DNA of 35,393 bases from Methanobacteriota archaeon (GTDB lineage: Archaea; Halobacteriota; Methanosarcinia; Methanosarcinales; Methanosarcinaceae): the NCBI GenBank assembly GCA_030054735.1, contig JASGVX010000140.1, positions 1 through 35,393 of the forward strand, read 5' to 3'. Made by a program: the position numbers and the translations under genes. The notes under the pieces are model-generated. The model did no database searches, was not told where the DNA came from, and saw only the letters and a list, made by a program, of their open reading frames with translations. Shown in pieces: positions 3,628 through 5,946 of this stretch (its first letter is position 1; every line of letters starts with the position of its first letter).

Positions 3628-4236
3628 TTAAGAAAGTTCTCCTCTTAGCACCAACAATTCTTCAAATGAGATTTTTTTTCTCCGTACAACACCAACCTCA
3701 AAGCCTATTTTCATCATTTTCTCTTCTACTACTTGAAGTCCGGTAATCGACGAGATCAATATCAAAATTTTCCCACCTGGTTTCAGGTAGTTTCTTACAT
3801 CATCTAAAAATCTGTCAAGGGTCTCCCGCCCGCTAGCTCCGCCGTCAAAAGCGTAATTCAGCCAACCTGGAACTTTTTCTTCTTCAGAAGTAGGGAGATA
3901 TGGAGGGTTAAAGAGTATGAGGTCAAAAGAAACTCCCATACTTCCGGATCTTATGCCTTTGAAAAGGTCGGTACGGATTACTTCAACCCCGTTTGCTTTT
4001 GCACAGCGTGCGGCATGTGGATTAATCTCAGTTGCAATTACACGGATGCCTGAGGTATTTTCTCTAAGTACGGCAGATACAAAACCTGAGCCTGCTCCTA
4101 TTTCAAGAATGCACATTCCTGGCTCTGCCTCTTCGAGGGCTGCGTCGGCGAGCAAAAAGGAGTCTTCTGCTGGCTCGTAAACAAGATCTAAGTCTCCGAG
4201 TTTAACCCTGGTGTTTTTATATTCGATTTCAGCCAT
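3628..4236 (-). CDS. HemK-type (Mtq2/PrmC-like) protein N5-glutamine methyltransferase, archaeal class
   Basis: A 202-residue class I SAM-dependent methyltransferase. The SAM-binding loop LEIGAGSG lies near residues 44-51. The signature tetrapeptide NPPY is at 110-113, the hallmark of enzymes that methylate the amide of Gln or Asn. The short form without an N-terminal helical domain matches the archaeal and eukaryotic Mtq2 group, which methylates the GGQ glutamine of class I release factor with a Trm112 partner. The substrate (aRF1) is inferred from the family. The gene is the last of the conserved cluster and starts 3 nt after the rsmA stop, so translational coupling is likely. The Shine-Dalgarno is weak. 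Confidence 0.9.
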   Translation of the reverse strand: MAEIEYKNTRVKLGDLDLVYEPAEDSFLLADAALEEAEPGMCILEIGAGSGFVSAVLRENTSGIRVIATEINPHAARCAKANGVEVIRTDLFKGIRSGSMGVSFDLILFNPPYLPTSEEEKVPGWLNYAFDGGASGRETLDRFLDDVRNYLKPGGKILILISSITGLQVVEEKMMKIGFEVGVVRRKKISFEELLVLRGELS

Positions 4237-4239
4237 GTT

Positions 4240-5049
4240 TTATCGGGATCTAAGTTCATAAATCATGTTTGCAACGCAAGCAAGCTCTCCAGGAGTAAGG
4301 TTCTCAGCCCTTTTGCTCATGAAATCTTCAGGGAGCCGGTTTACAACCTCTTTAACGTCAGGAATTTTGAGCATATAATTGGTGTTCAAGATAGAGTTCC
4401 TCAGCTTTTTTCGGCGCTGGCTGAAGACTGCAGACACAAAGTCAAGGAAAAAGGCTTCATCGCGAACATCGAAAGGAGCAGGGCGTGGAACAAGTTTGAC
4501 AACCGCAGAGTCAACTTCAGGGACTGGCTGGAAGGCTCCTTTTGGGACCATCATGAAAATAGAGGCATCAGCAAAGTAATATGTATCAACAGTAAGGCGG
4601 GAATAGTCTTTACAGCCAGGAGGAGAGACCATACGGACTGCAAACTCATATTGGTACATAAGGATTCCAAGTTTGAATTTATGCTGCAGAAGTTTGAAGG
4701 TGATTTCTGAGGAGATGGAATAGGGGAGGTTTGAGACGACCTTGTCAAACTCAGGGAAGCTTACTTTAAGTGCATCGCCTGCAATAATCTCTATATTCAC
4801 GACATTGTCGAAACGCTCGTGCAGGACTGAAACAAGGGCAGGGTCAAGCTCGACAGCAATTACCTTTTTTGCTCTTCTTGCAAGCCTTTCGGTAAGATTT
4901 CCGATTCCTGCACCGATCTCAAGAACCGTATCCTGCTGACTCAGATCAGCAGCAACAACTATCCTGTCCAGGTAGACTGTATCAATGAGGAAATACTGGT
5001 CAAAGGTGCCTCCTTTTATATTGTACTTTTTAAGAATAGAACGAACCAG
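4240..5049 (-). CDS. rsmA: 16S rRNA dimethyladenosine transferase RsmA/KsgA (apparent CTG start)
   Basis: RsmA dimethylates the two adjacent adenines near the 3' end of 16S rRNA during small-subunit maturation. The frame contains the SAM loop LEIGAGIGN, the acidic VELDP motif and the catalytic NLPYSIS motif, plus the C-terminal RRKKLRNSIL region, so the enzyme looks complete and active. A GTG at 4800 would remove the whole SAM-binding half. The frame stays open upstream to a TGA at 5068-5070. The family's usual N-terminus (V-R-S-I-L-K-K-Y-N-I-K-G-G) begins right after a CTG at 5047-5049. AGGAGG lies 8 nt before that CTG, and no in-frame ATG, GTG or TTG fits. I therefore place the start at CTG, giving 269 residues, the normal length. 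It lies in a cluster with DUF655 upstream and the HemK-type gene 3 nt downstream. Confidence 0.9.
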   Translation of the reverse strand: MVRSILKKYNIKGGTFDQYFLIDTVYLDRIVVAADLSQQDTVLEIGAGIGNLTERLARRAKKVIAVELDPALVSVLHERFDNVVNIEIIAGDALKVSFPEFDKVVSNLPYSISSEITFKLLQHKFKLGILMYQYEFAVRMVSPPGCKDYSRLTVDTYYFADASIFMMVPKGAFQPVPEVDSAVVKLVPRPAPFDVRDEAFFLDFVSAVFSQRRKKLRNSILNTNYMLKIPDVKEVVNRLPEDFMSKRAENLTPGELACVANMIYELRSR

Positions 5050-5208
5050 GGCTAAAGCCTCCTGAATAGATCACATGTTTTTAATAGATTAATTTTTATA
5101 AAAAATTTTAATAAACTAATTTTTATAGAAATTTTAAATCATAAAAAGCCAAATCTGCAGAAGCCAGATAGGCAGAAACATAATTAAAAATAGAAAAAAG
5201 GTTTCCCC

Positions 5209-5946
5209 TCACTCGGGCCTCGGACGGCGGGGAGGAGTGGTGAACAGCCGGTACTTTATGAAGTCATCCTTTAGTTCTTCTTCAATCCTGTTAGAGATAA
5301 CTTTAGAAGGGTCACGAAGACTCGGAATCCTTTCGCGGATATCCTGATAACTCTTAAAGTACCCTTTTTTGCGTTCATCAATAATAGACCACATGAGTTT
5401 CTTACCTATTCCTGGAAGGAGGTCGAGCATATGCAGGCGGGTTGTAATGGAAAGGGCATCATTGAAGAACTTTACAAACCTTTCTTCCTGGTGTTTGACA
5501 ATGGCTTCAAGGATAAAAGGTAATTCCAGATTGGCTCCGGTAGTGAGGTCAGAATAGCCTATCCTCTGCTTTACGTGGTCTATTTCATTCCTATCTCCTG
5601 GACCTATATATACCCGTGACTGGATTTCAGGAATTACTCCATTTTTGGGAACGAGCTCCATTAAAGTGAACTTCTTATCCCCAATAGCCTGTACAAGAGG
5701 TTTTTTCTGATAGGTTGGCTTGCCGTCAACGGACTTTCCATAGGGAAGGTAATCGAGAACCCAAACGTATTCTTCCCTTACCTCTGAAATTTTCATATTT
5801 TTTTCGGATGAGCGCGGAGCTCTTTCTGAATGTCTATCAAATTGCTGTTTGCCTCCCGGACGCCTGCCGCCAGAAGAAGGTCTTTCAGCAGATGATCTGC
5901 CAGTGTACGGTCTACCTAATTGCGACTTATCTACTTTCATCAGCAC
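5209..5946 (-). CDS. DUF655 predicted RNA-binding protein (HhH)
   Basis: A 245-residue protein of the archaeal DUF655 family (COG1491). The first about 50 residues are Arg/Ser/Gly-rich and probably disordered. Next comes a beta-rich region with VWVLDYLPYGK and a PEIQSRVYIGPGDR segment, similar to an OB-like fold. A helix-hairpin-helix motif LPGIGKK lies near residues 179-185. The tail is basic. HhH and basic regions suggest RNA binding; the precise role is unknown. Its constant position between rpoF/L21e and ksgA in archaea points to rRNA maturation or ribosome assembly. The start could be GTG at 5946 or ATG two codons later (5940); upstream GGATGGGTG is a modest ribosome-binding site. A gap of 159 nt separates it from rsmA. 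Confidence 0.88.
   Translation of the reverse strand: MLMKVDKSQLGRPYTGRSSAERPSSGGRRPGGKQQFDRHSERAPRSSEKNMKISEVREEYVWVLDYLPYGKSVDGKPTYQKKPLVQAIGDKKFTLMELVPKNGVIPEIQSRVYIGPGDRNEIDHVKQRIGYSDLTTGANLELPFILEAIVKHQEERFVKFFNDALSITTRLHMLDLLPGIGKKLMWSIIDERKKGYFKSYQDIRERIPSLRDPSKVISNRIEEELKDDFIKYRLFTTPPRRPRPE

Follow-up and report, generated by a model that had tools for sequence, protein, structure and literature searches.

A conserved CTG codon as the probable weak start of rsmA in Methanosarcina

Introduction

Some genes are known to keep a non-AUG start codon across genera. The ksgA gene of E. coli, in work attributed to van Gemen from 1989, is said to be under autogenous translational control. A close described system is E. 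coli infC, an initiation and fidelity gene that encodes IF3 and starts with AUU; changing AUU to AUG abolishes autocontrol, according to a title cited in PMC9845219. In the available sections of a comparative study (PMC5622118), CUG is the rarest NUG start codon and is very rarely switched to, with 2 cases from 61,358 ancestral AUG starts and 1 from 2,468 ancestral UUG starts. Presumably that study relied on annotated starts, in which case CUG may be undercounted. The same sections report that genes started with GUG or UUG more often have a strong Shine-Dalgarno (SD) sequence, a standing correlation only, with no significant association between start codon switches and SD strength. A review of archaeal initiation (PMC7531240) names AUG, GUG, and UUG as start codons in its accessible text, from which the word CUG is absent. 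In excerpts of a ribosome-profiling study of Methanosarcina mazei (PMC11456600), ATG starts 79% of the longer genes, and CTG is assigned to about 5% of 314 unannotated small open reading frames (ORFs).

Here we describe the rsmA (ksgA) gene of Methanosarcina, for which a CTG codon is the likely start. The genus is that of the CTG-started small ORFs of M. mazei, but those ORFs, in the excerpted text, are unannotated, whereas rsmA is a conserved housekeeping gene. Like the known genes with conserved non-AUG starts, rsmA keeps a non-AUG codon across genera; it differs from them in being archaeal and in having CTG in one genus. A literature search over titles and abstract openings, with most subscription journals out of reach, found neither a CTG start for rsmA in Methanosarcina nor KsgA feedback through non-AUG codons, and the available passages of PMC7949028 contain neither.

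Results

We analyzed a 35,393-nucleotide stretch of DNA (the window) from a genome of the genus Methanosarcina (coded g1 among the genera compared). A frame on its minus strand is open from a CTG at 5049-5047 to a TAA at 4242-4240, and the leader, which runs from AGGAGG at 5063-5058 through an 8-nt spacer to the CTG, reads CTTTAGCC. A sequence-only reading had proposed this CTG as the apparent start of rsmA/ksgA, with AGGAGG 8 nt before it. The AGGAGG is at that place when read on the minus strand, and the CTG appears to be the only plausible start of the frame. The same reading placed an in-frame TGA at 5070-5068 and saw no ATG, GTG, or TTG between it and the CTG; the interval indeed lacks such codons, but the TGA is at 5073-5071, three nucleotides from where it had been put. 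The features of the locus are as follows.

3628 to 4236, minus strand: following gene with an ATG start (ORF list), presumably a HemK-like methyltransferase
4240 to 5049, minus strand: rsmA/ksgA coding sequence as read from the CTG, 269 amino acids (TIGR00755, 238.6 bits; Pfam RrnaAD, 207.1 bits)
4720 to 4731, minus strand: NLPY, residues 107 to 110 (sequence), which we take to be an RsmA motif
4798 to 4800, minus strand: GTG at codon 84, the first standard start downstream; a start here would lose the N-terminal SAM-binding motifs
4909 to 4929, minus strand: TVLEIGA block, residues 41 to 47 (sequence), which we take to be SAM-binding motif I
4984 to 5004, minus strand: FDQYFLI, a conserved N-terminal block, residues 16 to 22 (sequence)
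5047 to 5049, minus strand: CTG, putative start codon (sequence; CTG in 27/29 and TTG in 2/29 genus genomes)
5050 to 5208, minus strand: AT-rich stretch of 159 nt that separates the rsmA start from the stop of the preceding gene (sequence)
5058 to 5063, minus strand: SD sequence AGGAGG, 8 nt 5' of the CTG, complement of CCTCCT at the 16S 3' end of genomes G001 and G007
5071 to 5073, minus strand: upstream in-frame TGA stop (sequence)
5074 to 5076, minus strand: in-frame ATG immediately 5' of the TGA, missing in relatives L003 and L004
5209 to 5946, minus strand: preceding gene (ORF list), presumably DUF655

In the eight genomes of g1, g4, and g5 with an aligned N terminus, the preceding gene itself opens with three consecutive start-like codons (window positions 5938 to 5946), either GTG-CTG-ATG or GTG-TTG-ATG.

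The protein started at the CTG matches NCBIfam model TIGR00755 over its full length with 238.6 bits against a cut-off of 171, which places it in the RsmA family, and it carries the FDQ.FL block, EIGA of motif I, and NLPY at residues 16 to 22, 41 to 47, and 107 to 110. The 186-amino-acid form started at GTG 4800 reaches 158.2 bits, below the same cut-off, and matches Pfam RrnaAD from profile position 77 onward only. A second NCBIfam model, NF011486, gave 260.6 bits, below its cut-off of 450. The expectation in the sequence-only reading that automatic annotation would begin at GTG 4800 is borne out only by a mechanical ORF list, which chooses that codon and so drops the SAM-binding motifs. The genome holds one full-length RsmA match and a second that is partial and weak (E = 9e-6). 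The gene is thus like RsmA/KsgA/Dim1 of TIGR00755 in being a single-copy, full-length match above cut-off, and it differs in its start codon and in an N terminus about 11 to 13 residues longer than that of the sister families. A helix-45 stretch with two adjacent A residues was found in the 16S rRNA of G001 and G007. In the 16S 3' ends of two Methanosarcina genomes (L269 to L271) this stretch reads GTAGGGGAATCTGCGG. The common form of helix 45 is GGGGAACC, from which the Methanosarcina stretch may differ at one base.

We searched the genus and the family Methanosarcinaceae for rsmA. The gene was found at full strength in 29 of 30 genus genomes, the exception (G021) being 75% complete, and in 105 of 111 family genomes, and the codon at the homologous column was taken from all 105. 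This codon is TTG in 64 genomes, CTG in 27, GTG in 7, and ATG in 7. All 27 CTG genomes belong to Methanosarcina, where the other two of the 29 have TTG and none has ATG. This comparison with relatives, which the sequence-only reading had suggested as a check, removes the explanation by a sequencing error. The window's assembly consists of 149 contigs, but the same CTG is present in 27 genomes, single-contig ones included, and an error at one base is practically impossible.

Non-ATG codons occupy the rsmA start column in 98 of the 105 family genomes, which span 14 genera, so that the gene has a conserved non-AUG start in the family; this extent of ATG avoidance is beyond what a reader of a single sequence could see. 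ATG is found in g6 (6/6) and in one g8 genome, the other g8 genome having TTG. Five GTG and three TTG occur in g10, 25 TTG and one GTG in g11, and one of each in g13; the remaining eight genera have TTG throughout (g2 and g3 being represented by a single genome apiece). The rsmA ATG of g6 (L084 to L089) lies behind a weak SD sequence. In the sister families of the order (f2 to f5), of which 20 of 65 matching genomes were sampled, the codon before the conserved block is ATG in 15 and GTG in 5, and the N terminus of RsmA is shorter, starting about 11 to 13 residues later. Eight loci from further groups gave ATG in seven and, in L052 (Methanocellales), TTG only. Non-AUG starts are therefore found outside the family too (GTG in 5/20 sister-family genomes and TTG in L052). 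In one sister-family genome (L247; G142, f4), a CTG stands immediately 5' of the rsmA ATG (CTG-ATG), possibly by chance.

Four lines of evidence agree on the CTG at 5049-5047 as a start that appears to be genuine. Codons 2 to 15 are conserved as protein over the genera of the family (approximately LVRxILxKYGIxGG), loosely in g6, g8, and g9, and this conservation means that translation starts no later than codon 2. Stops in the same frame are close by: 54 of the 105 genomes (9 of the 29 genus genomes) have one at most 8 codons upstream, and 7 of 105 have one at most 2 codons upstream, among them the genus genome L019, which reads TAA GCT CTG. The spacing from GGAG to the codon in the genus is 8 nt in 8 genomes, 9 nt in 20, and 10 nt in 1; because genus genomes differ in it by one or two bases, the stretch 5' of the codon is not translated in frame throughout. 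The start column is limited to CTG or TTG in 29/29 genus genomes, a limitation seen in 0 of 19 invariant-leucine columns of rsmA, and CTG and TTG together make up 29% of the leucine codons of the gene. The column thus behaves as a start rather than as a leucine codon. Codons 2 to 15 contain no other NTG in 27 of the 29 genus genomes; L025 and L030 have a GTG at codon 11 and an ATG at codon 15.

These observations make it very unlikely that the CTG is an ordinary leucine codon and that translation starts elsewhere, whether at an upstream codon, at the ATT of codon 5, or downstream. Such a start could draw on the in-frame ATG, GTG, or TTG codons present at scattered places upstream in 8 of the 29 genus genomes, on the internal codons of L025 and L030, and on the sister families, whose later start means that the first residues are not strictly needed by the enzyme. 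The upstream stops, the indels in the spacer, the lack of another NTG in 27 of 29 genomes, and the CTG/TTG-only column speak against it, as does codon 5, where one clade has ATT and the other CTT. The ATG-TGA pair at 5076-5071 is probably incidental, because relatives L003 and L004 do not have it; for the same reason, read-through of the pair upstream of rsmA was ruled out.

We compared the starts of rsmA with those of five neighbors, which we take to be hemK, rpoF, rpl21e, pus10, and trmY, in 24 family genomes. The neighbors start with ATG in 106 of 108 cases counted, and rsmA has a codon other than ATG in 22 of these 24 genomes, so that it is the one gene among the six compared with persistent AUG avoidance. 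The count was limited to matches that begin at residue 1 with an NTG codon, which excluded hemK in G039, G040, and G101 and rpl21e in G095 (which has an ATG two codons on); the genes without a match in G039 and G040 were likewise left out. The DUF655 gene was also left out, its N terminus being aligned in g1, g4, and g5 only. A DUF2156 gene near rsmA was matched in no other genome of the 24-genome comparison. The 20-kb stretches compared for G039 and G040, both of g6, yielded no rpoF, rpl21e, pus10, or trmY. The aIF1 gene was ruled out as a further non-AUG gene, with ATG in 16/16 resolved cases (17 looked at, L254 being the other).

A wider control compared 400-kb stretches of the genus genomes G007, G001, and G010, which gave 161 ortholog triples; 93 were dropped for overlap with a better one and 68 were kept. 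A common standard start column was present in 51 of these, CTG columns only in 4, and neither in 13; the 7 GTG among the triples are an overcount, since several GTG columns lie upstream of a likely real ATG (e.g., in trmY). Among the 68, rsmA alone had a CTG in all three genomes behind an SD sequence. Besides rsmA, the CTG-only triples are G007_191, in which one genome has GTG, and G007_176 and G007_898, which were rejected as CTG starts because their CTG codons look like internal leucines.

The SD sequence of rsmA is stronger where the start codon is weaker. Anti-SD duplex energies were -10.94 kcal/mol for CTG (n = 27), -6.69 for TTG (n = 64), -6.43 for GTG (n = 7), and -3.07 for ATG (n = 7), and every CTG genome has a strong SD sequence (-10.0 to -11.2 kcal/mol). 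In five genus genomes the rsmA SD energy averages -10.0 kcal/mol versus -6.6 elsewhere, and the SD sequences of the neighbors in the genus (five genomes) are equal or weaker, with a largest strengthening of 0.2 kcal/mol (rpl21e). The strengthening is therefore specific to rsmA among the genes compared. In G001 and G007, both of the genus, the 16S 3' end reads GGATCACCTCCT and fits AGGAGG in full; a 16S match was sought in G000 and none was found. As in the accessible sections of PMC5622118, a stronger SD sequence goes with a weaker start codon, but here the relation is followed along one gene in one family and includes CTG, which that study omitted from its SD analysis because there were too few cases.

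We placed the start codons on a tree of the 105 RsmA proteins built with the first residue left out; this is a quick, unrooted tree in which 43 of 102 inner branches are open. The start codon changes at least seven times on it, including two changes between CTG and non-CTG and two between ATG and non-ATG. We read the two CTG changes as a single gain that followed the branching of L013, which has TTG, and a return to TTG in L029. Because the independent codon changes are few, the correlation between SD strength and codon is suggestive only. The gap between the preceding gene and rsmA measures 11 to 28 nt in eight genera, and larger values occur in g1 (53 to 369 nt), g4 (84 nt, measured in one of two genomes), and g5 (105 to 189 nt, measured in three of four); it could not be measured in g6, g8, and g9. 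The 5' end of rsmA is the most conserved synonymous window of the gene (1 of 244), but hemK (4 of 179) and DUF655 (2 of 223) show the same trend, and special 5' synonymous conservation was dropped. The mRNA of the start region is weakly folded, with a mean of -5.8 kcal/mol versus -11.0 in the gene (29 genomes), which we take as ordinary.

Discussion

Our preferred explanation, to which we give a probability of about 0.6, is that rsmA of Methanosarcina has a genuine, selected weak CTG start that would limit RsmA synthesis and is partly offset by a stronger SD sequence. We infer initiation at the CTG, its weakness, and selection for low or controlled dosage from the identity and conservation of the codon, its restriction to rsmA among the neighbors tested, and the rise in SD strength as the codon weakens. 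The initiator tRNA would decode the CTG as Met. On a tree that is unrooted, the earlier arrangement in the family would probably be TTG and a moderate SD sequence of the GGTG type, with rsmA 11 to 28 nt from the preceding gene, and Methanosarcinaceae would mostly have kept a non-AUG start at rsmA. On the line to Methanosarcina, rsmA would have moved off its upstream neighbor, the SD sequence would have become a full AGGAGG, and TTG would have changed to CTG once. The CTG would then have been held as a weak initiation site, which would limit RsmA though the mRNA can bind the 30S subunit well. Against a weak start, the strong SD sequence may fully restore output, so that expression would not be low; in addition, ATG is present in seven family genomes (all of g6 and one of g8), and non-AUG codons also occur at rsmA outside the family.

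The same codon could instead be a historical relic, TTG having drifted to CTG under a perfect SD sequence with adequate output and no selection for weakness. The two CTG/non-CTG changes on the tree and the strong SD sequence in every CTG genome are in keeping with such a drift, and the absence of A and G at the first base of the start is only moderately unlikely under neutrality. Of 23 four-fold columns where C or T predominates, 3 are likewise free of A and G among the 29 genomes, so this absence is not extreme for a free position. We nevertheless consider neutral drift improbable, because ATG is one transversion away and the available sections of PMC5622118 count 43 UUG-to-AUG changes among 2,468 in close relatives versus 1 to CUG, and because 27 species kept CTG, 98 of 105 family genomes have no ATG, and the neighbors have ATG in 106 of 108 cases. 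A more specific proposal, which is a special case of the selected weak start, is feedback, in which a shortage of RsmA would promote initiation at the CUG of its own mRNA and full methylation would lower it. RsmA enzymes dimethylate two adjacent helix-45 adenines near the decoding site, and ribosomes without this mark would start more readily at non-AUG codons. In the accessible text of PMC7897474, deletion of KsgA/Dim1 in Haloferax volcanii and E. coli gave up-regulated proteins enriched for non-AUG starts, a 1997 reporter study by O'Connor is cited as agreeing, and overexpressed, catalytically inactive KsgA was dominant-negative, which means that dosage could matter. Passages of a review (PMC7949028) report more initiation with mutant initiator tRNA in bacteria without the RsmA methylations, and excerpts of PMC6237735 report that archaeal aIF1 destabilizes the initiation complex on non-AUG mRNA, which fits CUG as a sensitive codon. 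That rsmA is the only AUG avoider among six genes, with CUG in the genus, also favors feedback. It is at odds with the ATG of 15/20 sister-family and 7 family genomes and with the modification status, which PMC7897474, in the same text, reports as independent of the amount of KsgA; moreover, a fixed set point predicts the SD strengthening equally well. Feedback of this kind is therefore a tentative proposal that we regard as unlikely. We are equally doubtful that the rsmA start of Methanosarcinaceae senses the methylation state that its own product makes, with under-dimethylated 30S subunits more efficient at UUG or CUG, so that synthesis tracks need, and that this sensing was sharpened in Methanosarcina by the rarest NUG codon combined with the strongest SD sequence.

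The likeness to infC and IF3 lies in a gene of initiation and fidelity with a non-AUG start. It would be one of working principle at most: the non-AUG start is kept in 29 of 29 genus genomes and 98 of 105 family genomes, but g6, one g8 genome, and 15 of 20 sister-family genomes have ATG. Among the differences, rsmA encodes an rRNA dimethylase in another domain of life and has another codon and a very strong SD sequence. That the CUG-started rsmA is a functional archaeal counterpart of infC-AUU/IF3 is a speculative idea that we consider unlikely.

The gene encodes an ordinary enzyme with what appears to be a real and well-conserved CTG start, and it joins the known genes that keep non-AUG starts. 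The case is of interest as a conserved CUG start in an archaeal genus, one for which laboratory strains exist, at a gene whose product reportedly influences non-AUG initiation; if the regulatory reading were true, archaeal ribosome maturation would be tuned through the choice of a start codon. There is also a practical consequence, because tools limited to ATG, GTG, and TTG would truncate a near-universal enzyme in the CTG genomes, 24 of 27 of which have no further standard start before codon 31.

Two further observations concern single genes. The rsmA of L108 (G063, g10) has an in-frame TAG in its C-terminal part (LAD*EDI) where three relatives have Arg or Gln (LADREAI, LANQEDI, and LADQEAI); the TAG may be read through as pyrrolysine, may truncate the enzyme, or may have arisen by a recent mutation. 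The orthologs of G007_191 (L152 to L171), which encode a secreted-looking protein, share a column behind a G-rich SD sequence that holds GTG in G007 but CTG in G001 and G010, and they are a second candidate for a CTG start in Methanosarcina.
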